Part shown: positions 9,087-47,405 of the stretch, one piece after another | Layout of the letters: each line of letters begins with the position of its first letter | Position numbering within the stretch: the first letter of the stretch is position 1 | Source of the DNA: Streptomyces sp. Isolate_45 | GTDB taxonomy: Bacteria > Actinomycetota > Actinomycetes > Streptomycetales > Streptomycetaceae | Length of the DNA: 64,000 nt | Assembly: GCF_024721315.2 (NCBI RefSeq) | Contig: NZ_JANFAK020000005.1 | Span: 1-64,000 of the forward strand | Reading direction: 5' to 3' | The notes under the pieces: model-generated | Told to the model about the DNA's origin: nothing | Database searches by the model: none | What the model saw: the letters and a program-made list of their open reading frames with translations, nothing else | Position numbers and translations under genes: made by a program

Positions 9087-10292
9087 TCAGAGGTCGAGGG
9101 CCTTCGGGGAGATTTCGGTGCGGGGGCCGTGCCAGTCCAGGCAGAGAACGGTCGCGTCGTCTCTCGGCGGCCGGCTGTCGTAGGCGTCGGTGACCGCTCC
9201 GACCAGAGCGCGCACGACCTCACGGGGGTGCTCGGCGGTGGTCTTGCGCAGGAGGCCGGGCAGGTCGACCGTTTCGGCTTCGCGGTCCTGCATGCCGTCG
9301 GTGTGGAGCAGGAGGCGATCGCCGGGTTGCAGGTCGAGGTCCTGGACCTGATAGATGCCCGGATGGTCACCGAAGCCGAAAGGCATGTCCACGGCCAGGG
9401 CGAGTTCGGTGACGGTGCCGTCGCGCAGTCTCAGCGGCTTGGGATGGCCGGCGTTGACGAGCTGGGTGCCGCTTCCGTCGAGGGCGATGCGCAGCATTTG
9501 GCCGGTGACGAAGGTGCGGTGGCCGTGGTCGAGGAGGGCCTGGTGGCTCTGGCGTGCCTGTTCGGCGAGGTCTTGGCCGGCTCGGCGGGCGCCGCGGGAT
9601 GCGTTGACCAGGAGGGTGGCCATCAGCGAGGCGTGGACGTCGTGGCCCATGGCGTCGGTGATGGACAGGTGCAGAGTGTCGGCATCGAGGCTGTAATCGT
9701 AGGTGTCGCCGGCGACGGTGGCCGCCGGGACGAGGGCGCCGGCGAGGGTGAACTGGGGGGCTTCGCACGCGGCGGCGGAGGGCAGGAGCTGGCGCTGGAT
9801 CTCGGCGGCGACGCTGACCGTGGTGGTGCGGTTGCCCCAGTGGTAGAGGTCGGTGAATCGGCGGTCGGTGACGATGATGTACGCCAGCGCGTGCGCGGCC
9901 TCCTCCACCTGCGCCAGGACATCGTCGGTGACGTCGGTGGTGAGGAACAGCTCCAGAACTCCGACGGTGTCGCCGCGGTTCGTCACCGGGGCCAGGACCC
10001 GCTGCCCGTCATCGCCGGCCGGGGCCCGCACCAGCTGCTGCGTGCGCAGGACCTCGTCGTAGACGCCGCTGTCGACCAGGGGAATCCGCTCGGCGCGATC
10101 GTCCGGATCCGCGCCCAAGGTGTCGTGAACGCGCAGCATGCGCCGGCCAACGATGTCGACGAACAGAAATGACACATATCGGGCACCGAATCGGTCCCGC
10201 AGGTTGTGGGCGACGATATTGAGGGAGTCCACCGGCGCGGCCGCCTCCGCCCCGGCCAGCACATCAGCCAACCCGAACCGGTCATCCGTCAC
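9087..10292 (-). CDS. SpoIIE-type PP2C phosphatase with N-terminal GAF domain
   Basis: The 401-residue protein has a GAF-like N-terminal half ([20 protein letters not shown], then [17 protein letters not shown]). A SpoIIE/PP2C catalytic half follows: [53 protein letters not shown] and [10 protein letters not shown]. The aspartates in AGD, TDAMGH, HTDG and DDAT are the metal ligands. It would dephosphorylate a STAS anti-sigma antagonist, such as the product of 10547-10879. The GTG at 10292 was preferred to one at 10304 because GGAGG lies 5 bases before it. It sits between STAS and RsbW-like genes. Confidence 0.85.
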
Positions 10293-10546
10293 AGCAGCCT
10301 CCACAGGATCCGCACTTCATAAGAGTCAGCCCGGAAGGTTTCCAGCTTCCCCTCGGACGAAGACGTCCCACCTGGTGTACCCGCCGCTGGACAGCCAAGC
10401 CCACCCCATGAACAACGTCACACCACTGCGATGCCGGCATGAGTGCGGCGGCACGGGGCAAAGCCGGGCGAAGTTCCGCTCCGGTCCCGGCGTGAGGGGG
10501 CCGGGGCGAGCACTGCGTGCCCGCGAAGGCAGGAGGGCGGGGCCCG

Positions 10547-10879
10547 CTACAGGGTGCGGGCCTCTTCCACACTGCCGGCCGTCGGGAACAGCGGGCCGGC
10601 CTGGGTTATCTCCAGGACCCGGGCCAAGGAACGCGGCAGCGGGCCGGCCAGGACCAGACGGCCGGTGCGTAGCAGGTGGAACATGGTGTTGAGCATGGAG
10701 GAGTCGGCGAAGGTGATACGGCTGACGTCCAGGACGATCCGTCGGATTGCCGGGTCGGCGACGGCCGGTGCGTAGGCCTGTCGCAGCGGCTCGAGGGTGT
10801 CCTGGTCGAACTCTCCGGAGCACGCGATCACGCGGACGCCGTCACCTTCGTCCGGGAGTGTCAGGACGTCTTGTTCCAC
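10547..10879 (-). CDS. STAS-domain anti-anti-sigma factor
   Basis: The 110-residue STAS protein has the phosphorylation-site segment ITFADSSMLNTMFHLL, whose serine pair is the usual target of an RsbW-type kinase. It begins VEQDVLTLPDEGDGVRV and ends with a helix typical of SpoIIAA/RsbV folds. The GTG at 10879 follows AAGGAAAG. It lies about 108 bp after the MerR-type gene and 255 bp before the phosphatase gene. With them and the RsbW-like gene it forms a partner-switching set lacking a sigma factor. A paralogue with a changed phosphosite is at 16098-16613. Confidence 0.85.
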   Translation of the reverse strand: MEQDVLTLPDEGDGVRVIACSGEFDQDTLEPLRQAYAPAVADPAIRRIVLDVSRITFADSSMLNTMFHLLRTGRLVLAGPLPRSLARVLEITQAGPLFPTAGSVEEARTL

Positions 10880-10986
10880 GGGCTTTCCTTGATCGGGTAC
10901 AGGGGTCTGGATGGGCGGGGGATGTGGAAGAGCCCATGCGGGGGTTCTCCACATCGGCTCATGAGGGTGCGTCGGGGTGACTCGGG

Positions 10987-11331
10987 TCAGGCCGCGGCCC
11001 GGGGTCGCGCCGGCGCCGCGGTGGCGACTTGCCGGTGCTCCGCGTTGACGCGCCGTGCTTCCTGGAGCTGGTCCTCGAGGATCACGATCCGGCAGGCCGC
11101 CTCGATAGGGGTTCCCCGGTCGACGAGTTGCCGGGCGCGGGCGGCGATGCGCAGCTGGTAGCGGGAGTAACGCCGGTGCCCGCCGGCGGAGCGCAGCGGG
11201 GTGATCAGGCGAGCCTCGCCGATCGCGCGCAGGAAGCTCTGGGTGGTGCCGAGCATGTCGGCGGCCCGGCCCATCGTGTAGGCGGGGAAATCGTCGTCGT
11301 CGAGACGGTCGAGCATGTCGCCTGCGGTCAT
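10987..11331 (-). CDS. MerR-type HTH regulator (copy 1)
   Basis: The 114-residue protein contains the winged helix AYTMGRAADMLGTTQSFLRA, LITPLRSAGGHRRYSRYQL and a short coiled helix (AACRIVILEDQLQEARRV). It is MerR-like DNA binding without an effector domain, ending in an Ala/Arg/Pro tail. The ATG at 11331 has GAGAGGTG immediately upstream. It is almost identical to the protein at 16613-16963. Both have the same long leader and a conserved hairpin 25-35 bp before the start, which points to control at the leader. It probably heads the STAS/SpoIIE/RsbW set. Confidence 0.85.
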   Translation of the reverse strand: MTAGDMLDRLDDDDFPAYTMGRAADMLGTTQSFLRAIGEARLITPLRSAGGHRRYSRYQLRIAARARQLVDRGTPIEAACRIVILEDQLQEARRVNAEHRQVATAAPARPRAAA

Positions 11332-11356
11332 TTCACCTCTCTGTGAACCATGCGGA

Positions 11357-11388
11357 GGGGCCCGGGCGCCTGATGGCACCCGGGCCCC
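11357..11388 (-). promoter_or_regulatory. Leader hairpin before MerR-type gene, copy 1
   Basis: GGGGCCCGGGCGCC pairs with GGCACCCGGGCCCC across a 4-base loop (14-bp stem, one mismatch), 25 bp before the start codon. The second copy at 16997-17028 has a G-C pair replaced by T-A, and the mismatch replaced by a T-A pair. These compensating changes support selection for the RNA or DNA structure. Confidence 0.7.
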
Positions 11389-12050
11389 GAAGGAACTGCT
11401 ACACCATCTACCGGCCCTGGAACTGCGCCGGCCTTCTTGTTCCGCCTACCCGACCGGAATGCTGCCGGGGGTGCGGGGATCGCGGTTGCTCGACCGGAGA
11501 CCACCTCACAAACGATGTCCTGCGGTACCCGGACTCGCGTGGCGTCCGGGCGATCCTGATGGCGCCTCAACTCCTCCGTTCATCCCTCTGGGATCACTTA
11601 CTTACCAAACGGGTACTGCTCTTACTGCGGTACTGCAACTGCTGGTACTGCGAACTGCTCGTGGCCTGACCAAGCACCACGCTTCGGCAGCCGGCCCCGT
11701 CGCCCATCCTGCATCTGCTCTGGCTTGGAACCCCACTGCCGAACCTCCCGGTCCGGACGCCCACCTTCGACGCCCTGACCGAGGTACTGCGGACTTCTGT
11801 TACTGCACCACTGCGGTAATGCTCCCGGTGGCCCCTGACGACTGCGGGCCACCCGGTCCGGTGATCAGTCCCGTCGCCCATCCTGCACAAAACCTGGCTT
11901 CGACACTCCACCACCGCACCGCACTGCTGAACTGCAACAACCTTTTCTGTTGCCCGCCAGTTCGTCTCTGCCGGGCCCTTCTTGACTGGGCTACGAGAGA
12001 AACCATAACCACACCAGCACCCAATGTCTACTCCGGCCACCATAGGTTTT
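11389..12050 (-). promoter_or_regulatory. Long duplicated leader with ACTGC repeats, copy 1
   Basis: About 660 bp upstream of the MerR-type gene has no supported ORF but is strongly similar to 17029-17720. It is dotted with the pentamer ACTGC, dense at 11624-11670, 11785-11815 and 11920-11935. It also contains two copies of CCCGTCGCCCATCCTGC followed by CTGGCTT (about 11698 and 11873). The distal end (about 11983-12020) has a 38-bp block identical in both copies. It may be an extended 5' leader, a binding array or a hidden small RNA. Confidence 0.55.
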
Positions 12051-19856: not shown

Positions 19857-22800
19857 TCAATTTGAATGGTGCCGCGGGGGTCCGTCTGTGGAGCGGGTGT
19901 CGGCTGTGGCCTGTAGCTGAGTGGGGAAGGCCGGCAGGGAGGAGGCTCGGACGGCCTGGGGGAAGTCGAGCACCTGGTCGGGGTCGTAGGTCGCCTTGAC
20001 CTTCTGTAGCCGGGGGTAGTTGTCGGCGTAATAGGCGTGTTCCCAGCCAAGGAGTTCGGGATCTGTGTCGTTGACGTAGGCTCCGGGGCCCAGGTGCATC
20101 TGCATGGCTGCGTGGGTGTTCCGCATCGAATCCAGCCGGGCGGCGGAGTCGGAGTGCGGGCATGTCCGGGACCATGTGGTGATGTATTGAAGGACTGCCA
20201 GGGCGTTTCGGTGTGGAAACGCCGTCGCGCTGCTGGTCATGTCGGCCACGGCGCCTCCCAGGGAGTCGAGGTAGAAGCCGCCGGTGGCGCCCAGCCGGTG
20301 GAGGTCGTCGATGCCTGCGATCAGGATGGCGGTGGCGGCTTCGGTCATGGGTGCACGGACGATGTGCGACTTCCCGGCCCAGGCCATCCGGTCATCGCCG
20401 CCGGGGGCGCCACCCGAGTCGTTGCGGGCCCCCGGGTCTGTGAAGGCAGGGGCGGGCCAGGCGGATTCGGAGTGGGTCGCGCCGTCGCGCAGGGGGTGGT
20501 CGGTGACCATGGCGGATTCGACGTAGCTGCCGGGCGTGATGGTGATCCGTTTCGGCGGGCGTCCGACGGCTGCGATCAGGCGGTCGATCTCGCGGAGAAG
20601 CGAGGGGGTGCCGCCGATCCAGGCGCCGTGCACGATGGGTTGGGAGGGCCCGCTGCCGTCGAGCAGGATCCGTACGTCGCAGGAGACCTCGCGCGGTGTA
20701 CGGGGGTCGGTGATCCAATGCTGCCATCCGCGCAGCGCGCTCGCCATATCGGCGTGCGCCCACTGGACCTGGAAGTGCGCGAACGAAAGGCCGGTGATGT
20801 CGACCGGTTGGAAGTCCAGGGCCGTGACGACGCCGAAGTTGCCTCCGCCCGCGCCACGCAGGGCCCAGAACAGTTCGCGGTCGGGATCCTCGGGTGCGCA
20901 GGTGAGGTGACGCGTGCGTCCGTCCGGGGTGACGATGGTCGCTCCGATGAGCCGGTCGCAGGACAGTCCCCAAGCGCGGGTGAAGGCACTCTTGCCACCG
21001 CCGAGGGTCAAGCCGGCGACCCCGACCGACCCCCACCGTCCTGCTGCGATCGCCAGGCCGGAGCGTGCGAGGGCCTGTCCGGCGCTCGTGCTGCTGACAC
21101 CGGCGCCCAGGCGCACCCTGTCACGTGAGACGGTGATGCTGTTCAGGGCGGCGACATCGATCACCAGCCCCGGGGTGGTGGAGAAGCCTGCGTAGTTGTG
21201 GCCACCTGCGCGGACGGCAGTCGCTGTGCCGGTCTCGGCGGCGTAGGCGAGGCACGCCGCGGCGTCGTCCTCGTCTACGATGCGGGCGATTGCTGCGGGC
21301 ATGACGACGTCGTAGCGCTGGTTGTGCAGCACTCGGGCTTTGTCGTAGTCGGGGTCCCCCGGGCGCAGGAGCCGCCCGCGAAGCCTTCGTGCCAGCCGGG
21401 TGAGCTCCGCGTCGGTGCGCTGACCATGAGCCCGGACGGTGGGGCGCGATCCGGTGGGTGTCGTGACCGTACCGGTGGAGGGCGTCGTGGCAGGGGTGAT
21501 GGCCCGGGGCTGGGTGAAGAACCGGTCCGGGTCCACTGCGGCCTTGACGCGTTGCAGGCGGGGGTGGTTGTCGCCGTGATAGGCGCTTTCCCATTCGTCG
21601 AGTTCGGGGTCCATGCCGTTCACGTAGCCACCGGTGCCCAGGTGGGGGTGCATGGTGTTGTGGATGTCACGGAGCCACTGCAGACGCTGTTCGATGTGGG
21701 GCTGTGGGGTGAATTCGTGCCAGTAGGAGTGGTACTGGACGACACCGACCGCCGACCGGTGAGGGAAGGCGGTGGCATCCGGAGCCACGTCGTTGACCGC
21801 CCCGCCCAGGGAGTCGATGAGCAGCCCTCCGGCTCCGGTGACGCCGCCCAGCCGGTGGAGCCGGTTGACCGCGGCGACCATGTCTTCGGCTGCCGCCGGG
21901 GTCATGGGCCGGCGGACGATCTGCGACTTGGCCGCGAAGGCAACGCGGGGCCCGAAGGTTCCCCCGCCCCAGCGCTCCGGTTCGGCTGCCGCCTGGACGT
22001 AGCTGACGGGGTGGGTGACGCGGTCGCTCTCGGGCCTGCCGACGGCGGTGACCAGGCTGTCCAGGAGCGGCTGTACTTCGCGGGGGGTGCCGATGAAGGT
22101 TCCGGTGACGACGAGTTCGGAGGGCGCGCCTCTGTCGCTGAGCTGTTCGATGGCGGTGCGCAGTTCGCGCGGCAGGTTCGGGTCGGCGTTCCAGGCCGTC
22201 CAGCCCTGGATGAGGGCGGCCATGTCCTTCATGGGCCAGCGCATGACGATGCTGGTGAAGGCCATGTCGCTGATGTCGACGGTGGTGTAGTCGAGTGCGG
22301 TGACCACGCCGAAGTTGCCTCCGCCGCCCCCCAACATGGCCCAGTGGAGATCGCGGTCGGCACCGGAGGAATGAGCGTCGACGCTGCGGAGCCGCCCGTC
22401 CGCGGTGACGATGTCCACACCCGTGAGGTGGTCGATGGCCAGGCCCCAGGACCGGGTGAAGGCGCTCAGGCCGCCGCCCAGGGTCGCTCCGGCCACCCCG
22501 ATGGAGGGGCAGCGCCCCAGCGGCAGGCCCGCTCCGGATGCGGCCAAGGCCATGTGAGCCGCCATCCCCAGCGTTCCGGCACCCAGCCTGACCCGGCCGT
22601 CGCCCACCCTGATCGAGTTCAGTTCGCGCAGGTGGACCACGAGGCCGGGACCGGTGGAGTACCCCGCGTAGCTGTGGCCGCCGGAACGAATCGTCAGCTG
22701 CACGCCGCGCTCGCGTGCGAAGGTCACGCACGCGGCGACGTCCTCGGCTGTGGCCGGGTAGGCCACGGCTTGCGGGCGCACGTCGTCGTAGCGCTGGTTG

Positions 22801-25490
22801 ACCACGAGCCTTGCCTGCTCGTAGCGGGCGTCGTGAGGCTCCAGCAGCGTTCCACTCATCCTGGCGTCGAGGGCCGACCAGTCCACGGTGCTCGGGGCTC
22901 GGCCGCCGGACGGGATCCTTCGGTGGGGCGCGGAGCCCGGCGACGGGGCGGGCGGATCCTGGGTGAGCGAGGCGGCGGTGAGGAGGGCCGGCAGGGTATA
23001 GAGGGGAGCCAGGACCGGAAAGTCGAACGGCAGCGGGCGCGGGCCCGTCTGGTCGGGCACGGAGGTGAATCCGCCGTCGGAGTCCTGGTGGGCCAGGAGG
23101 TAGCTGATCCCGTGGCGGGCGCACGCGTGGTTGCCGTGGCGGGCCAGGACGGGCACTGCCTGTGCCGTCGACAGCACGTCGCTGGGGTCGTTGTTCTGCC
23201 GTCCCCAGCCTCCGTCGGCGTTCTGCGCAGCAGTCAGGTGTGACACTGCCCGCGCGGTCGCCTCGGTGATCCGGGCAGCGAGGGAAACCGACGGCTGTGG
23301 AACCGCGTGCAGGGCGTTGAGCGCGCGGAGGATCCCGCTGGACTCGCTGATCGTCCAGCTGCGCTCGAAGGTTCCGTCAGGTCGCTGGGTATCGAGGACG
23401 AACCCGGCGGACTTGATGAGCATTGTGTGGTGCCATCCGGTGGGGGCAAGTGCGAGCAGGGCCCCGGCGGTCATGTCCAGGTCGGGCGCGTCGCCGCTGA
23501 CCCAGGTCGGGAAGCCGCCGTCCGGCCCGCCCATGGCTTCCAAGTACCGGGTAGCCCGTCGCAAGTGGGAGGCATAGCGCTCGGGGGCACCAGCCTGGAG
23601 GAACTCCATGCAGCGGGTGGTGGTGTCGAGGTCTGTCTGGGACATGGCGCTGGCGAACGGCCAGCCACCGTCGGGCGCCTGCCAGGAGGCGACGAACTCT
23701 GCCATCCGGCCCGTGAGCGGGCGCAGCCGGTCATCGGCAAGGAAGGCCAGTCCGGCGACGGCTGTGAGCCAGAGGTCCTGGCTGTCGAGAAATGGCAGCC
23801 CTCCGTCGCGGTTCTGAGCCAGGGTCATCCTCAGAATGCCGTCGTCCACCACCGGGTGGCCGGGGCGGAAGCCACGAACGGCGTGCAGGGCGAGCAGGTG
23901 GGTGGTGGCGCCGGCCTCCCAGAACAGCCGGTTGCGGCCGGAGTCCAGCGAGTCGACCAGCCGGTTGCGTTCGGCTCCGGTCACCATGTGCGGGTGGCCT
24001 GTCGCCAGGGCGCAGATCATTCGGATGGCGAGAAGATTGACATCGGTGTACGTCGTGATCCGGTCCGGCGGCATCGACGGCAGGAGATCGTCGTCCGTCA
24101 GGGGGGCGTCGCACAGCAGGTGAAGCACGGTCCGCATCATGGCGGCTTTGAACCGGCCGCGCCCGCCGGTACCGCGGTTCAGCCGGCCGGAGAGCTCCGC
24201 GACGGCCGGGCCTGCCCGTCCCGCTGTTTCGGCGGGGTGGAGACAGGCATCGATCAAGAGGGCGTCGACGGGATCCGCGCCCACCCGGCGTGAGCGCAGG
24301 AACAAGGTCAGCTGTTCCTGCTGGGGCTCGTGTGTCCGTGCGGCGCGCAGGAGGGCAAGGAACAGTGCCGATTCAAGTACCCGGCTGGCACACCGGTCCG
24401 TCACCGCTCCTGTGGGCGAGACGGCCAGCGAAAGACGCCGGGTGAGGCGGTCGACGCTCCTCGGCGCGTCTGTCGGTGCCTGACAGGGGCCCCGCCAGGG
24501 GCCGAGCCAGGGGCCGAGCCATCCGGTGGCCGGGGCGAAGGGCGGAGGATCGTTGCCGGCCCGCTCTGGCCCTGCCGGTCGGGCGGCGTCGGGGGCTGCT
24601 GCCTCGGGGTCGTTGCGTCGCGTTTCTCCCTGCCAGGCCAGGGCCCCGTCGAGGAAGGAGCGGATCCGATCGACTCGTACCCTCAGACCTGCACCGTGCG
24701 GGCCTTGAGCGAGTGCGGTTGCCACTGCCGAGTCGAAGGCGTCCATGCGTTCGCTGATCATCGTGCGGGCGATCGCGGCAGCCTCGTGGTGGGTGCACCG
24801 GCGTTCGCGCGCGAGGATCGAGACGAGGTTGTCCGTTCCTTCAGCGGATTCCCGTTCCGCCGATGCCAGGTCGTTGGTCCACGCGACGAGATCCGCGGTG
24901 GCCTCGCGCAGACTCTCCAGGCCGCTCTCCTCGCCGGACAGCCCGCGCTCCACCAGAGCGAGCATCGGCAGCACCGTGATGGTGTGCCGGCGCATCTCCA
25001 CGTAGCGGGACAGTGCAAGGGGAGTGCGCCTGGTGCGCAGCAGGGCTTCTTCACAGGTGGCGTCGGCGAAGTCGCGGTAGCGGGCGGCGAATCGCCTTGC
25101 CCATTGCGGGCTGGTGGCCGGTGTCGAGCGGTTCCACAGGTCCACGATCGCCCGCACCGCAGGAACGGACAGATCGGATGTGGTGGCCGACCCGTCCACC
25201 ACGGAGACAAGGGAGTCCATGAGGGCCCGCACGTGCGATTGACTGCCGCTGCCCGGTCCACGGTCGATGCTGTCGTCGACCAACGCGATGAAGGCACCCC
25301 ACTGTGCGAGGAGTTCGAGTTCGGCATGGTCCGCCCAGGGAGCGACGAAGCCGGCCATCCTTCCCTGCCCCATCCTCTCCAGACGCCGCTTATCGTCCGG
25401 GGTCGTGAGCAACCCCATGCGGTCGGCCCAGGCGCGTGCACGGCATTCTGCCCGGTCCCACTGCCGATTGCAGATGGTGGGTTGGTTCAC
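19857..25490 (-). CDS. Four-domain terpene synthase / terpene cyclase / twin BBE-type FAD oxidase fusion (1877 aa)
   Basis: One uninterrupted frame encodes four enzymes. Residues 1-290 are a class I terpene synthase with D72-D-S-I-D76 (DDxxD), the NSE triad N206/S210/E214 (NDLASAERE) and YVEMRRHT before it. Residues about 345-845 are a class II (beta-gamma) cyclase-like alpha-barrel domain with repeated DGGW/DGGF motifs and D620-L-D-T-T624 in place of DxDD. Residues about 870-1330 and 1360-1850 are berberine-bridge-type FAD oxidases. The first has H939 and C994 for double FAD attachment; the second has H1431 but Trp at the Cys position. Linkers at 291-345, 843-868 and 1330-1355 are rich in Pro, Ala, Thr and Gly. 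The GTG at 25490 follows GAGG at 10 bases. It may cyclise a prenyl diphosphate and oxidise the product. No prenyltransferase gene is nearby. Confidence 0.85.
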   Translation of the reverse strand: MNQPTICNRQWDRAECRARAWADRMGLLTTPDDKRRLERMGQGRMAGFVAPWADHAELELLAQWGAFIALVDDSIDRGPGSGSQSHVRALMDSLVSVVDGSATTSDLSVPAVRAIVDLWNRSTPATSPQWARRFAARYRDFADATCEEALLRTRRTPLALSRYVEMRRHTITVLPMLALVERGLSGEESGLESLREATADLVAWTNDLASAERESAEGTDNLVSILARERRCTHHEAAAIARTMISERMDAFDSAVATALAQGPHGAGLRVRVDRIRSFLDGALAWQGETRRNDPEAAAPDAARPAGPERAGNDPPPFAPATGWLGPWLGPWRGPCQAPTDAPRSVDRLTRRLSLAVSPTGAVTDRCASRVLESALFLALLRAARTHEPQQEQLTLFLRSRRVGADPVDALLIDACLHPAETAGRAGPAVAELSGRLNRGTGGRGRFKAAMMRTVLHLLCDAPLTDDDLLPSMPPDRITTYTDVNLLAIRMICALATGHPHMVTGAERNRLVDSLDSGRNRLFWEAGATTHLLALHAVRGFRPGHPVVDDGILRMTLAQNRDGGLPFLDSQDLWLTAVAGLAFLADDRLRPLTGRMAEFVASWQAPDGGWPFASAMSQTDLDTTTRCMEFLQAGAPERYASHLRRATRYLEAMGGPDGGFPTWVSGDAPDLDMTAGALLALAPTGWHHTMLIKSAGFVLDTQRPDGTFERSWTISESSGILRALNALHAVPQPSVSLAARITEATARAVSHLTAAQNADGGWGRQNNDPSDVLSTAQAVPVLARHGNHACARHGISYLLAHQDSDGGFTSVPDQTGPRPLPFDFPVLAPLYTLPALLTAASLTQDPPAPSPGSAPHRRIPSGGRAPSTVDWSALDARMSGTLLEPHDARYEQARLVVNQRYDDVRPQAVAYPATAEDVAACVTFARERGVQLTIRSGGHSYAGYSTGPGLVVHLRELNSIRVGDGRVRLGAGTLGMAAHMALAASGAGLPLGRCPSIGVAGATLGGGLSAFTRSWGLAIDHLTGVDIVTADGRLRSVDAHSSGADRDLHWAMLGGGGGNFGVVTALDYTTVDISDMAFTSIVMRWPMKDMAALIQGWTAWNADPNLPRELRTAIEQLSDRGAPSELVVTGTFIGTPREVQPLLDSLVTAVGRPESDRVTHPVSYVQAAAEPERWGGGTFGPRVAFAAKSQIVRRPMTPAAAEDMVAAVNRLHRLGGVTGAGGLLIDSLGGAVNDVAPDATAFPHRSAVGVVQYHSYWHEFTPQPHIEQRLQWLRDIHNTMHPHLGTGGYVNGMDPELDEWESAYHGDNHPRLQRVKAAVDPDRFFTQPRAITPATTPSTGTVTTPTGSRPTVRAHGQRTDAELTRLARRLRGRLLRPGDPDYDKARVLHNQRYDVVMPAAIARIVDEDDAAACLAYAAETGTATAVRAGGHNYAGFSTTPGLVIDVAALNSITVSRDRVRLGAGVSSTSAGQALARSGLAIAAGRWGSVGVAGLTLGGGKSAFTRAWGLSCDRLIGATIVTPDGRTRHLTCAPEDPDRELFWALRGAGGGNFGVVTALDFQPVDITGLSFAHFQVQWAHADMASALRGWQHWITDPRTPREVSCDVRILLDGSGPSQPIVHGAWIGGTPSLLREIDRLIAAVGRPPKRITITPGSYVESAMVTDHPLRDGATHSESAWPAPAFTDPGARNDSGGAPGGDDRMAWAGKSHIVRAPMTEAATAILIAGIDDLHRLGATGGFYLDSLGGAVADMTSSATAFPHRNALAVLQYITTWSRTCPHSDSAARLDSMRNTHAAMQMHLGPGAYVNDTDPELLGWEHAYYADNYPRLQKVKATYDPDQVLDFPQAVRASSLPAFPTQLQATADTRSTDGPPRHHSN

Positions 25491-25986
25491 GGTTCGCTCA
25501 ACCTCGGTGGAAGTTCGTGTGCAGCTGGACAGCGGCGGGACGGGACGCGTTCGAGGGGCTGGTGACCGACCTCGTATCGTGAGCGCATCCTGAAGGAGAC
25601 GGCCGGGATACGGCTGGCCTCGAGCAGGGGCCACGGTGAACCGGCGTTATGGGCGCGCTGGTTCACCAGGACCGATACCGCGCTCCGCGGCGCTCCTGGG
25701 TCAGGCTTCCCGAAGACAGATCAAGACCCGCTGTTGCGTGGCGGCCCGCGCTCCGACGCTCTCTTCGGCGGCACGACCGGTACCTCGCCCAAAAGGGTCG
25801 TGAACAGACGGCGATCCGGCCTGGCCTCCTTCTCGATCTCCCGCGAAACTCATCGCACCGCACTCGAACGAACATCGAACGGCATCGACTCCAGCCGTCC
25901 ATGCGGGTCCAACCGCACCGTCAATCGCCCCTCCGTCACCCCGCAAACCGACCGCAACAGACTCGCGGCACACACCGGTCACCGCA
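25491..25986. other. Upstream region of the terpene fusion gene, no gene recognised
   Basis: About 500 bp with open frames on both strands but no recognisable product. It lies between the fusion gene start and a truncated Tn3 transposase remnant, and must contain the fusion gene's promoter. GC content is locally lower near 25840-25990, which may mark foreign or regulatory DNA. Confidence 0.4.
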
Positions 25987-29121: not shown

Positions 29122-29173
29122 AGATTGGTTGCGGGGCTTGGCAGTTGGGTGTGGTGTCGGGAGGATCTGGGGT

Positions 29174-29605
29174 GTGTCTGCTGATCTCGTGCCTGATGAC
29201 CTGTGGGAACGTGTGGCCCCGTTGTTGCCGGGGCGGCCGGTCAGGCGGCTTCGGTATCCCGGGCGGCTGCCGGTGGATGACCGTGCCGCCTTGAGGGCCA
29301 TCGTTTACGTGTTGTGCAAGGGCGTGAGCTGGCGTGACGTTCCCACCGGGCAGCTCGGCTGCAGTGGTGTGACGGCCTGGCGGCGGCTTCGGGACTGGAC
29401 CGAGGCCGGCGTGTGGCCCCGCATCCACCAAGTCCTGCTGACCGAGTTGCGGGCCGCCGGGCTGCTGGACATGGATGACGCCGCCATCGACGCCTCGCAC
29501 GTCAGGGCCCTCAAGGGGGGCCGGTCGCGGACCGGGATCAAGGCTCCGTCCACGATCCACAACCGGTCCACATCGGCGACCGGCCGCAGGGCCCAGCACC
29601 TTTGA
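29174..29605 (+). pseudogene. IS5-family transposase, 3'-truncated
   Basis: The GTG at 29174 starts VSADLVPDDLWERVAPLLPG. GVSWRDVPTGQLGCSGVTAW and DMDDAAIDASHVRALKGG follow, the N-terminal part of a Streptomyces IS5-family transposase including the first catalytic Asp region. After KGG the sequence departs from the family (expected GPSPVDR...) and ends after about 25 unrelated residues. The DDE domain is lost. The element's left terminal repeat is at 29101-29121. No right end is adjacent. Confidence 0.7.
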
Positions 29606-29879
29606 CCAGCACAAACGTCCTTCCGGACATAGAAGTCGACATGACTGACACGGCACTTCGTCACGTGTGAACAGGCACGCCCATGGCAGCTGGCCGTCCT
29701 CGCGACGGGCACCTCACGGCAGCAGCTTCGTCATTCCGTGCCAGCCATGACCACTACCACTGCGCAACGTGAGCAGGGGCAGCCGTCCGGTCGCGGCTGA
29801 CACCCATCCGATGCCACCACCGCACGCATTCACAGGCGGGGCGACACGTGCCCGTGTTCCGGCCCCCACGGTCGTCACG

Positions 29880-30290
29880 GCCCCGACTCCGCGCCCGGCG
29901 TCGGCGCCTCCCCCCGGCGGTGGTTGGTCGGTGGAGCGGATCTCGTACGGCCAGCGCAGCCCGTGCAGGACGATCACCTTGTCCATGACGCGCGGAAGGC
30001 CCAGGCGCTCGCGGTCGCGCATCGCGAACCTGACGACGGCGACCTTGCTGCTGCGCTGCAGTGCCTGGCGCAGGAGCTCGTACGGCTTGGCCCCGACGCC
30101 GTCGGCGGCAAGGTAGTAGGAGGCCCCGATCCGGACCGGGTCGATGCTGTCGGCCGGGACGAACGCGACGATCTCGATTGCCTTCGCGGTCGGCAGCGGC
30201 ATGTTGTCCAGGTCGGCATCGGTGATCGCCACGAGGGTGCCCGTCACGGTCTCGTAGCTTCGGCCGATCTCGTCCTACCGCAGCTCCCAG
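29880..30290 (-). pseudogene. Ku (end-joining protein) internal fragment
   Basis: The minus strand reads GRDEIGRSYETVTG (with one frame change near 30245), then DADLDNMPLPTAKAIEIVAF, VPADSIDPVRIGASYYLAAD, KPYELLRQALQRSSKVAVVR and VIVLHGLRWPYEIR. This is the central beta-barrel and bridge region of bacterial Ku, the DNA-end-binding protein of non-homologous end joining. Both the N-terminal roughly 60 residues and the C-terminal part are missing. The fragment lies between an IS5 remnant and a strong hairpin. Confidence 0.7.
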
Positions 30291-43970: not shown

Positions 43971-46245
43971 CGAGATCGGTCACCTTTCCGCCGGCCACGA
44001 TCTGCTGAGGTCCGGCTTGTTCCAGGGCGTCGATGATGGTGTCGAGCTTGCCGAGCGTGCGGGTGTTCTTCTCGGCGATCCGCGAGAGCCCGGCCCTCTC
44101 GGCATCGCCGATGAGCTTGCGGGTCTCATCGCGCTGGCGTCGGTGCTGGTCGAGGAAGTCGCCGGTTGTGATGAAGAATCGGCAGTCCAGGCATGGGTTG
44201 GCGTACTCGCAGTCGGTCTGGATGGGGGCTCCGCAGTACCCGTTGGGGAGACTGACCTTGGCGCGAACGAGGGACAGACGCATCCAGGCGGCGTCGGCGA
44301 GGGGATGGTCGGTGGGCAGTTCGACGGGTTCGCCGTCGGCGTCGACCTTGAGGGCCTTCTCCCAGTGCTCGCGCAGGGTCTTCTGGTGGAGTCGCGCGTA
44401 GACGGCGGTCATTTCCGGCGACATGTGGTCAAGCAGCTGCTGGACGATGTACTGCGGGACGTTGGCGTTGATCAGCCGGGTGCCCAGCGTGTGTCGGAAC
44501 TGGTGAAAGGTGACCCGCGCGGAGCGTCCGTGCTCGTCGAGGAGACGAATGCGCTGCAGCCAGTTCTCCATGAGGCTGCGGCACCAGGTGTCCGAGATGG
44601 GTTTGCTGCCGTTGAGGTTTGCCTGCCCGCTGGGGAACAGGAAGCGGCTCCCGGCCGGGAATCTCGACTCGACCCGGTGTTGCTGTTCTGCGATCTCGTC
44701 TGCCAGGTCCTGGCTGATCGGGAAGAACGCGGCACGTCCGTGCATCTTGTGGTTGATCCAGGCCAGGTAGGGGGCGCCCGTGTCGTCGTGGGTGACGCAG
44801 TCGAATCGCAGGCGTCGGGCGTCCTTCATGCGCAGGCCGCAGGAGATCAGCAGGGGAATCATGAGGCGGAGGTCATCACTGGGGATCAGTGCCAGGTTGG
44901 AGGGATTTTCCAGCTGGCGCATGAGGTGCTCGGAGATCCAGCGCGGCTTGGCCGGCGGCAAGGCTGGGGCGTCGTTGTAGACGACGGCGTTGCGCGGAAG
45001 GTCCGGCTGCCAGTCGTGCGCCCGGGTATCTGTGAGCAACCGGCTCAGAGCGTTGACCGCGGTCCGGCGGGTGTAGACGTCCGGGTAGTCGATGCTCAGG
45101 ACGGCGATCCATGTCTCGATCCGTGCGCGTGTCAGGTCGGCGGGCGCTGCGTTCGGCGGGAGATGCCGGGCGAAGTGGACCAGGGAGCGGAGATTGTTCG
45201 CCACCGTGTTGACGCTGATGCCCGTACTGATCCGCCACCGGCACCACCGTTTGGTCAGCTCGCGAAGCCAGGGCTGGGGGATGCTCGCAAAGCGCAGGTA
45301 GCGCGACTCGCCTTCTGCCAGGGCGAGATGGCGCAGGTCCCAGGTATCGCGAGGGTACTGGTCGGCCCATGGGTCATCGGCGATGAGCAGGTGTTCCAGT
45401 GCGAAGCGGGTGTCCGCGATGAAGCGGAAGGCCACCACGTTGTGGGTCGAACGCTGGCCGTCGGGGTTGGCGGGGGCGACGTAGTCCCGCCAGTGGGCTT
45501 CGCTCCAGTCGACGAGGCTGGTGACCGGTGCCTGAGACGCCCAGGTGACCGCGCGGCGCACGTCTCGGGCGGGGGTGAATCGCAGCCCTTCATCGAGGCG
45601 GTGCTGGAGTCCGAACTGGAATTCCAGGCGGAGTCCGGGGGCGAGCTGGCCGAGGCGGATCTTCGGGTCGCCGCGGTGGGCGAGGTCGTCGTACCAACCG
45701 CTGAGATCTGGGCGACCGTGCTTGCGCCACCGGCTGTGGTGCGTGTGACACAGCGATGCGTTGGTGCTGTCGGTCCAGCGCGGGCAGTCGGGGAATTCGC
45801 AGGACCGTTCCACGGCCTGGGGCCCCTGCGGCGGCTGGTAGATGGTCCGTCCGACCCAGTCCGCGAGGTCCGGCCGTCCCGCATGGTTCCAGCGCGAGGC
45901 ATGTCGGTGGCACAGGGTGTTGGCGGCTCTGGCCCGATTGCATCCGGGGAGCACGCAGTCCAGTACCTGATTGCGCTGACGCAGCCGCGCGTCGACCTGC
46001 ACGGACCAGCTGTCCAGGTCGACCGGTCGGTCGGCTGCCACCCAGTGGTGATGGTGGGTGCGACAGAGCAGCAGCCTGCCCATGGTCAGCGTGGTCGGGC
46101 AGGACGGTATGCGGCACTCCCCCGGGAAGAACGTCGGGCTGTCACGAGGGGGACGGAACACGTCGGCACGGAACTCCGGCCGGACCGTCTCCATCAGCTT
46201 CGCCAGAAGCCCAGCCGAGCCCCGGTGTATCTGGGGTGTGTTCAC
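43957..46245 (-). CDS. TnpB-like tyrosine recombinase
   Basis: The 762-residue protein has an N-terminal region with Cys/His clusters (CRIPSC, LLCRTHHHHW, CVLPGC, LCHRHASRW, CEFPDC, LCHTHHSRW) resembling zinc-binding repeats. A central SAM-like domain follows, then the catalytic part: R in LISCGLRMKDARRL, H-x-x-R in FHQFRHTLGTRL, and LLDHMSPEMTAVYARL with the nucleophile Tyr. The C-terminal Cys group CEYANPCLDCRFF follows. The GTG at 46245 overlaps the tnpA stop (GTGA). It strand-exchanges DNA together with TnpA. Confidence 0.85.
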   Translation of the reverse strand: MNTPQIHRGSAGLLAKLMETVRPEFRADVFRPPRDSPTFFPGECRIPSCPTTLTMGRLLLCRTHHHHWVAADRPVDLDSWSVQVDARLRQRNQVLDCVLPGCNRARAANTLCHRHASRWNHAGRPDLADWVGRTIYQPPQGPQAVERSCEFPDCPRWTDSTNASLCHTHHSRWRKHGRPDLSGWYDDLAHRGDPKIRLGQLAPGLRLEFQFGLQHRLDEGLRFTPARDVRRAVTWASQAPVTSLVDWSEAHWRDYVAPANPDGQRSTHNVVAFRFIADTRFALEHLLIADDPWADQYPRDTWDLRHLALAEGESRYLRFASIPQPWLRELTKRWCRWRISTGISVNTVANNLRSLVHFARHLPPNAAPADLTRARIETWIAVLSIDYPDVYTRRTAVNALSRLLTDTRAHDWQPDLPRNAVVYNDAPALPPAKPRWISEHLMRQLENPSNLALIPSDDLRLMIPLLISCGLRMKDARRLRFDCVTHDDTGAPYLAWINHKMHGRAAFFPISQDLADEIAEQQHRVESRFPAGSRFLFPSGQANLNGSKPISDTWCRSLMENWLQRIRLLDEHGRSARVTFHQFRHTLGTRLINANVPQYIVQQLLDHMSPEMTAVYARLHQKTLREHWEKALKVDADGEPVELPTDHPLADAAWMRLSLVRAKVSLPNGYCGAPIQTDCEYANPCLDCRFFITTGDFLDQHRRQRDETRKLIGDAERAGLSRIAEKNTRTLGKLDTIIDALEQAGPQQIVAGGKVTDLDATG

Positions 46246-47405
46246 CGCTCTGACTTCCCGTCCTTGATGACCCCAGCCGAGAGAAGCACCCTGCGATGAT
46301 CTTCGACACTGAGGTGGCTGTAGATCTCCGCGGTCGTCTGCGAACTGGCGTGGCCGAGGAGCTCGGCCACGACCTCGATCGGAACCTTGGCCCGCAGCAG
46401 TCGCGTGGCGTAGGTGTGCCGGCACGCGTGCGGCGAGAAATGGGCGATACCGGTCCACTTCTTCAGGCGTCCCACGAGCTCGTTGACGTTCGCCCGGGTC
46501 ATCGGGGAGCCGATCGGGGCACGGAAGAGGTTGACGAACACGAAGTCGCAGTCAAGAGCCCTGTACTCGCTCTCCATGTAGGAGGCGTAGCGGTCGAACA
46601 GCTCCGGACTCACCGGAACGGTCCGACCCTTCATCCCCTTGACCCGAGCGCGGTTCGGATTGTTCTCCCGCGGAACGATGTAGATCTCGCCCTTGCGGAG
46701 GTTGAGGTCGCTATGCCGCAGGCCCAGGGCCTCGCTGATCCGCAGACCCGAGTCGTCCAGGAGGGCGATGAGGAACTGGTCCCGCCGCCGACTGCAGGCT
46801 CGCATCAGCCGCTGCACCTCGTCGCCGGTGAGGGTCTTGGGCGGGTTGCGGTGGGCGTGGATGCGGATCGGGCTGTGCTCGACTTCCCCGCCGCGCTGGG
46901 TGTGCACCAACATCGGCATGTAGGTGCCGGTGGGCTGCCTGGCCAGCAGGTTTCCCAGCAGCGCGGGAACGCTCTCATCCCGCCGGGCGTGGAACCGGTA
47001 GAAGGACGCGAGCGCCGCCCTCTTCCGCTGCAGCGTGGTGTTCTCCAGCGCCGGACCGACATCCGGCAGCACGAACACACCGGCCGCTCGGGCCGGCTTC
47101 GGCCGGCGCAGCCAGTCGAAGAACTGGGCAAGGACCTCCAGCCGCACCCGCCGGAAGTCCAGACAGACCTGCTCCAGCCAGACGAAGAAGTCCCTCAGGT
47201 CGTAGGCGTAGCCCTGGACCGTGTTCGGCGACGCGCCCGTCGCGGACAGGTACGCAAGGAAGTCCTCCACGGCATCGACGGGCAAGCCGTCGTCTCCCAC
47301 CACGGTGTACGAGAGCGGACCGTCATCGGACAGCCGCAGCCTCTGCACTGCGAACGACACACCACACCCCAGGCCGATATGGACAGGCGAACAGAACCCG
47401 TCCAT
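46242..47405 (-). CDS. TnpA-like tyrosine recombinase
   Basis: The 387-residue integrase has a core-binding domain (about 45-150: FLAYLSATGASPNTVQGYAY) and a catalytic domain. The latter has R in LLDDSGLRISEALGL, H-x-x-R in SPHACRHTYATRLL, H in ELLGHASSQTTAEIY and the following Tyr nucleophile. It is the first gene of the cassette. The start is uncertain: ATG at 47405 or GTG at 47360 (VSFAVQRL), the latter preceded by GGGGTG. Confidence 0.85.
   Translation of the reverse strand: MDGFCSPVHIGLGCGVSFAVQRLRLSDDGPLSYTVVGDDGLPVDAVEDFLAYLSATGASPNTVQGYAYDLRDFFVWLEQVCLDFRRVRLEVLAQFFDWLRRPKPARAAGVFVLPDVGPALENTTLQRKRAALASFYRFHARRDESVPALLGNLLARQPTGTYMPMLVHTQRGGEVEHSPIRIHAHRNPPKTLTGDEVQRLMRACSRRRDQFLIALLDDSGLRISEALGLRHSDLNLRKGEIYIVPRENNPNRARVKGMKGRTVPVSPELFDRYASYMESEYRALDCDFVFVNLFRAPIGSPMTRANVNELVGRLKKWTGIAHFSPHACRHTYATRLLRAKVPIEVVAELLGHASSQTTAEIYSHLSVEDHRRVLLSAGVIKDGKSER

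Follow-up and report, generated by a model that had tools for sequence, protein, structure and literature searches.

Terpenoid pathways are normally spread across a gene cluster and, to our knowledge, the known cyclase fusions end at scaffold formation or dephosphorylation. Synthases of the abietadiene type carry both cyclase classes in a single chain, and the HAD-TC drimenol synthases AsDMS, AstC and AacA combine an N-terminal phosphate-handling domain with a C-terminal class II cyclase. In AsDMS, the HAD domain removes the diphosphate. AsDMS and AstC have a DxDT(T) motif (PMC9128629, PMC12365925, PMC13244436). The drimenyl diphosphate synthase SsDMS of Streptomyces showdoensis (7xq4, 7xr7, 7xqz) is a single enzyme, and in the cav cluster of Streptomyces clavuligerus an SsDMS-type class II cyclase, a class I synthase, a Nudix hydrolase, which probably removes the diphosphate, and the P450s used for oxidation are encoded by separate genes. 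Here, we analyse the first 64,000 nucleotides of contig NZ_JANFAK020000005.1 of Streptomyces sp. Isolate_45 (the window; this contig, C364, is contig 364 of 408 in a genome of 9.07 Mb), where one gene on the minus strand, at 19857..25490, encodes a protein of 1877 amino acids (aa) with a class I terpene synthase domain, a class II cyclase domain and two flavin oxidase domains, OX1 and OX2.

The class II domain has the same beta-gamma fold as SsDMS, with 36% identity and the acid Asp aligned, but SsDMS has DxDD instead of the DxDT found here, and it is without a class I or oxidase part. With respect to the HAD-TC drimenol synthases, a class I domain takes the place of the HAD phosphatase, the cyclase is beta-gamma instead of beta alone, and oxidases are added. 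The fusion differs from the abietadiene synthase type in that the class I part comes first, the protein is bacterial, the class II part is of the SsDMS type and oxidases are fused to it. In the cav cluster (locus L135, whose record is unannotated; the names CavC, CavB and CavF were assigned here from the description in the paper), the class II cyclase is 34.6% identical, and the class I synthase, encoded at a distance of two to three genes from it, is 29.5% identical. The nearest solved sequence relatives of OX1 and OX2 are 9p1o/9p1p and EncM, the latter being the best by fold; unlike OX1 and OX2, they are stand-alone, and EncM, whose substrate is a polyketide, is without the Cys that OX1 has. 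We tentatively propose, with a confidence just short of even, that this single polypeptide takes a prenyl diphosphate all the way to an oxidised terpenoid, without other pathway genes in the vicinity.

One Reading Frame Encodes Four Domains

The frame at 19857-25490 opens with GTG and runs through 1877 residues without a stop. The mechanical start of the open reading frame (ORF) is at 25634, 48 codons upstream, and, since the proteins P0003 and P0005 open with the same Asn-Gln-Pro, 25490 is the likely start. In the protein, Pfam detected two FAD_binding_4 and two BBE stretches, and the four domains span residues 1-294 (class I, alpha; 24609..25490, all features lying on the minus strand), 341-843 (class II, beta-gamma; 22962..24470), 869-1336 (OX1; 21483..22886) and 1366-1850 (OX2; 19941..21395). 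They are joined by linker 1 (residues 295-340; 24471..24608; 65% P/A/T/G/S, with pLDDT <50 at 295-338), linker 2 (residues 844-868; 22887..22961; 72%) and linker 3 (residues 1337-1365; 21396..21482; 62%). Third-position GC is 0.80-0.88 across all four domains, which argues for a single reading frame throughout.

The four-domain architecture, the domain identities and the Pro/Ala/Thr-rich linkers described in an earlier note on this DNA were thus borne out by Pfam, motifs and linker composition (62-72% P/A/T/G/S). Its claim of one uninterrupted frame also held, as four-domain copies exist in P0002 (93%, Streptomyces sp. NPDC058401) and P0003 (89%, S. subrutilus), which excludes chance and local assembly error. 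Although P0005, 92% identical elsewhere, leaves the family sequence within OX1 and shows that this gene is not free of frameshifts or errors, P0002, P0003, P0004, P0006 and the locus L015 share the architecture, and such independent copies refute an artefact of missed stops or mis-joined neighbouring genes, which we regard as having a negligible probability. As to whether relatives carry the domains as separate adjacent genes, a concern raised earlier, unfused class I/class II gene pairs do occur in relatives and some relatives look split, but the fusion is real here, since the four-domain copies are uninterrupted.

Both Cyclase Domains Retain Their Motifs

In the class I domain, residues 63-250 matched Terpene_syn_C_2 (PF19086) with 108 bits, above the curated cut-off of 23.7, and both the DDxxD metal motif (residues 72-76, DDSID; 25263..25277) and the NSE motif (residues 206-214, NDLASAERE; 24849..24875) were found. 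Residue conservation was counted in the 41 family rows P0001-P0041, gaps being set apart. D72, D73 and D76 are each retained in all 40 rows holding this stretch, N206 in 40/40, S210 in 39/40 and E214 in 37/40. Of the RY pair near the C-terminus, frequent among class I terpene synthases but not defining, R292 is retained and the Tyr is replaced by Asn, the residue found in 38 of the 41 rows (Tyr in three). The Pfam scan gave no match to a HAD-like phosphatase domain, residues 1-294 being the class I synthase, and no plant alpha-beta-gamma synthase appeared among the 50 matches listed by Foldseek and by VIA for residues 1-860, a negative that says nothing on the packing of the two cyclase domains.

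A beta-gamma fold of the SsDMS type spans the whole class II domain, in which residues 667-810 matched SQHop_cyclase_C (46 bits, cut-off 26.1). D620, D622 and T623 of the DxDT acid motif (residues 620-623, DLDTT at 620; 23622..23633) are kept in 41/41 rows, and D622 aligns with D303 of SsDMS, the catalytic acid Asp of DxD(D/T), the fourth residue being, as in AsDMS, Thr and not Asp. In the structure comparison, no match to diterpene class II structures was obtained; the domain matches SsDMS, which cyclises farnesyl diphosphate (FPP), rather than diterpene class II structures. An encapsulin cargo (family 2 terpene cyclase NF041168) was rejected, with 94 bits versus a cut-off of 1200. Since the catalytic residues are kept across the family rows, both cyclases and OX1 look intact at the sequence level.

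The Class I Domain Probably Acts Second

The class I domain is the first one listed in the earlier note. By analogy with SsDMS, which the class II part matches, we consider that this domain probably acts second. FPP from housekeeping enzymes would go into the class II domain, where D622 would protonate the terminal alkene to give a bicyclic drimane-type diphosphate, and the N-terminal class I domain, with its DDxxD and NSE motifs, would strip the diphosphate to leave an alcohol or a rearranged product. OX1, holding His and Cys, would oxidise the alcohol, and OX2, with His and a Trp for the Cys, would oxidise the product once more. Some relatives carry an SDR or a GXWXG/DUF4334 domain as a further addition at the end of the chain. 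Assembly-line cyclisation followed by oxidation, as suggested earlier, stands as the best reading, although as an inference and not as a demonstration.

In a C20 version, the class II domain would make a copalyl-type diphosphate from geranylgeranyl diphosphate (GGPP), the class I domain would ionise the allylic diphosphate and the oxidases would act on a diterpene alcohol. Pairing class I and class II is classical labdane logic, and among solved structures it is the type I diterpene synthase 9m25 that the class I domain matches best by sequence. However, the class II domain is close to the FPP-cyclising SsDMS and gave the negative result with diterpene structures described above. Moreover, the sister clade of the class II domain (L022, L024 and others) has members, in L024 and L025, that are encoded next to polyprenyl synthase and class I genes, and these two polyprenyl synthases score better on the farnesyl/geranyl diphosphate synthase model (279 and 259 bits) than on the GGPP synthase model NF041003 (133 and 148 bits), all below cut-off. 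The top match of the L025 synthase is an encapsulin-cargo polyprenyl transferase model (264 bits) and that of the class I partner in L024 is selinadiene synthase, both again below cut-off. The scores weakly suggest that the polyprenyl synthases beside these cyclases are FPP-type, and we consider the C20 version unlikely, though deserving of some weight.

Two observations count against the order of reactions that we propose: with the class I domain first, the ionisation of a homoallylic diphosphate would be avoided, and the RY pair is RN in most of the family. The first belongs to a route in which the class I domain would convert FPP to a hydrocarbon or an alcohol, a neutral product that the class II domain would then protonate and cyclise, as tetraprenyl-beta-curcumene cyclases act on a class I product. 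The N-terminal position of the class I domain and its ordinary sesquiterpene-synthase fold, seen by structure comparison, agree with this route; nevertheless, it appears improbable, because the class II domain resembles SsDMS, whose structures were, by their titles, solved with FPP and which, according to PMC12365925, needs Mg2+ for phosphate binding. The second would fit two cyclase domains giving two unrelated products, or a class I domain that is chiefly a structural partner, and the authors of the cav study suspect CavC and CavF to be parts of two clusters (PMC11035983). This we hold to be quite improbable, as DDxxD and N206 are invariant in the 40 rows, class I and class II genes are paired even when unfused, and a second fusion of the two, in which the class I part is unrelated, has arisen (L132, P0042).

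OX2 Is Probably an Internal Duplicate of OX1

The preferred order, with cyclisation by the class II domain and removal of the diphosphate by the class I domain, would leave both oxidases to act on the released product. OX1, with FAD_binding_4 and BBE parts and 9p1o and EncM as relatives, holds the residues for a predicted bicovalent flavin in 41/41 rows, namely, the predicted flavin-linking His939 (22674..22676; RSGGH at 935) and Cys994 (22509..22511), the predicted second link. In OX2, 45.5% identical to OX1, the predicted single flavin link His1431 (21198..21200; RAGGH at 1427) is present in 5/5 OX2-bearing rows, and Trp1486 (21033..21035) stands at the place of Cys994: where OX1 reads GRC, GRW is found in all five OX2 rows, and one further W counted in this column is a misaligned residue of P0039. 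The bicovalent pair, which is not required of all members, is thus absent from OX2, whose residue pattern is that of a monocovalent flavin enzyme. In the alignments, the counterpart of Thr139, important at the O2 site in EncM, is Ile997 in OX1 and Val1489 in OX2; as this residue differs, EncM-type flavin-N5-oxide chemistry is not claimed for either domain.

The BBE tree contained 90 rows from 111 segments (21 dropped), with 18 OX1 rows chosen and part of the fused family omitted. All 18 OX1 and 5 OX2 rows formed one clade (100/100), and 66 of the 67 stand-alone BBE rows fell outside it, the remaining one, L018, lying inside OX1. The five OX2 rows (100/100) are sister to all OX1 rows except P0039 (99/90), for which the program flagged long-branch effects. 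Because the tree joins OX1 and OX2, the latter is probably an internal duplicate. Recruitment of OX2 from a stand-alone family was rejected: among the 120 listed of 295 matches, identity did not exceed 47% except for P0043 (69%), a cut-off OX1-OX2 protein. In the tree, the duplication falls before the split of three- and four-domain OX1, which suggests that OX2 was probably lost in many lines. L018 (Streptomyces diacarni; 9896-11488) is a lone OX1-type oxidase, 63% identical to OX1 and within the fused OX1 clade, and no cyclase domain was found across its 21.5 kb locus.

The Fusion Belongs to a Wider Family

A search with the whole chain against 5.8 billion proteins (E 1e-10; 7992 candidates scored) yielded 41 proteins. 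In addition to the four-domain P0002 and P0003 and the close copy P0005, there are five-domain relatives with an extra C-terminal SDR (P0004 and P0006, the SDR position being read in L015, the P0006 locus) and 32 class I-class II-OX1 proteins of 1233-1354 aa (P0007-P0038). P0039 is a three-domain protein with, by Pfam, a GXWXG/DUF4334 tail, P0040 misses the start of the class I part, OX1 is cut in P0041 and P0042 has no oxidase. With residues 1-860, 14 more two-domain class I-class II proteins of 753-851 aa were obtained (P0163-P0176); two of these, P0164 (on a contig of 3.3 kb) and P0167 (described as partial), may just be cut sequences. The architecture, unique as far as the earlier note knew, therefore has two-, three-, four- and five-domain relatives. 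The SDR of P0006 (L015, Streptantibioticus silvisoli) is without the YxxxK pair that P0004 retains and may, by its sequence, be inactive. OX2 is rare, being carried by P0001-P0004, P0006 and the cut P0043, and, at E 1e-100, by the window's own genome alone among 150 genomes (its own and 149 relatives).

Class II matches at 1e-30 occurred in 48/392 genomes of the genus; of the 54 places found, 30 were made into loci and read. The fused family is present in at least five of the 392 genomes: that of the window, G190, G378, G270, in which the class I part is in another frame, and G166, which has the two-domain form. The G166 relative was found with identical scores at C1:54869-56347 and 9068010-9069488, close to either end of a chromosome contig of 9.12 Mb, and the two copies probably lie in terminal inverted repeats. 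Beyond Streptomyces, members include Nannocystis (a myxobacterium), Nonomuraea, Amycolatopsis, Saccharothrix and Kitasatospora. No class I-class II-BBE fusion was reported in the open-licence literature searched for the fusion or its cyclase, nor does one appear in passages of PMC12453296, PMC12860625 and PMC12298776. The fusion is part of a real, evolving family, each module of which has a known fold.

Apparent Loss, Exchange and Separation of Modules

From sequence comparison, the C-terminal part seems to be modular: duplicated, lost and, in two relatives, exchanged near a linker. By their class II domains, P0038 and P0040 fall among two-domain proteins, in a clade of 9 rows (100/100). Their grouping with a 19-row clade, to which the majority of the three-domain rows in that tree belong, was rejected by an approximately unbiased (AU) test (p 3.6e-8), for which the group had been picked after the tree was seen. 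Their OX1 domains lie inside a three-domain Streptomyces/Nonomuraea/Kitasatospora clade (100/99). P0038 is 33-70% identical to four three-domain proteins at 56-780 and 72-97% beyond 780, and 48-88% identical to four two-domain proteins over 56-780, where those proteins end; block 0-56 is high to both groups (61-79%), and block 732-780 is similar to both (55-62% against 57-67%). Resolved to blocks of 60 columns, this profile places the switch at or near the class II-OX1 linker (the place of linker 2), and we read P0038 and P0040 as candidates for recombination that gave an oxidase to a two-domain cyclase.

The two-domain proteins P0163 and P0165-P0168 nest within three-domain clades, which suggests that their oxidase was lost or split off; the other two-domain proteins form a deep clade. 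The two-domain proteins were not adopted as the simple ancestor, as some nest in three-domain clades. P0163/P0044 and P0165/P0047 are read as split genes, since the longest contig is equally long for both members of each pair and the second pair also has one strain name in common.

The second, independent class I-class II fusion, whose class I domain is unrelated, was found in L132 and P0042. In L132 (G366:C22; 6981-12740), the fusion has 1214 aa, and a GMC oxidoreductase gene begins 15 bases after it, with the same GXWXG/DUF4334 tail as on P0039 and on the fused protein of S. fumigatiscleroticus (L016). In L121 (2412-5709) and L122 (9107-12427), a class II cyclase gene directly adjoins a separate BBE gene, with no class I match within the fetched stretch; these pairs are the unfused counterpart of part of the fusion. 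In L136, the gene line reads class I, class II, SDR, WS/DGAT-type acyltransferase and KAS III. Since L121, L122, L132 and L136 pair cyclases with oxidising or acylating genes, they suggest that the cyclases yield an alcohol, which would later be oxidised or acylated.

Genomic Surroundings and Substrate Supply

Neighbourhoods were compared in 11 fused loci (the window and L008-L017; both flanks, up to 10 kb each; 181 gene calls) with a crude, GC3-based gene caller, the flanks of L009 and L013 being cut. The only family common to 11/11 loci is the fusion itself, and three other families occur in two loci each; a gene-cluster explanation was rejected, since no neighbour family was present in more than 2/11. 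Pfam on 30 chosen ORFs of the many more in the window detected no other terpenoid genes. As the earlier note had stated for the vicinity, there is no prenyl diphosphate synthase (PF00348) on contig C364, the genome having six elsewhere; general metabolism would thus supply the FPP or GGPP, and the gene itself seems to encode the whole pathway.

The window also contains a putative transposase gene (DUF4096; 29129-30247) adjoining a partial Ku gene, and a phage-type integrase gene (46242-47405). At G000:C349:39154-44913, about 3.6 kb separate a polyprenyl synthase from BBE-like pieces, of which one contains an internal TGA.

Implications

Whether these proteins form a class of terpenoid megasynthases, that is, portable single-gene pathways with modules duplicated (OX2), appended (SDR, GXWXG/DUF4334) and swapped (P0038, P0040) at Pro/Ala-rich linkers, appears evenly balanced to us. 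Such duplication, addition and swapping of modules may be likened to that of modular polyketide synthases. As no conserved neighbours were found, cluster-based mining may readily overlook the products of these genes. A cyclase chain that continues to flavin oxidation, in some members with a dehydrogenase, would show that natural terpenoid assembly lines exist and would give engineers linkers and swap points that are ready for use. It would also allow a direct test of what class I synthases do next to drimane-type class II cyclases.
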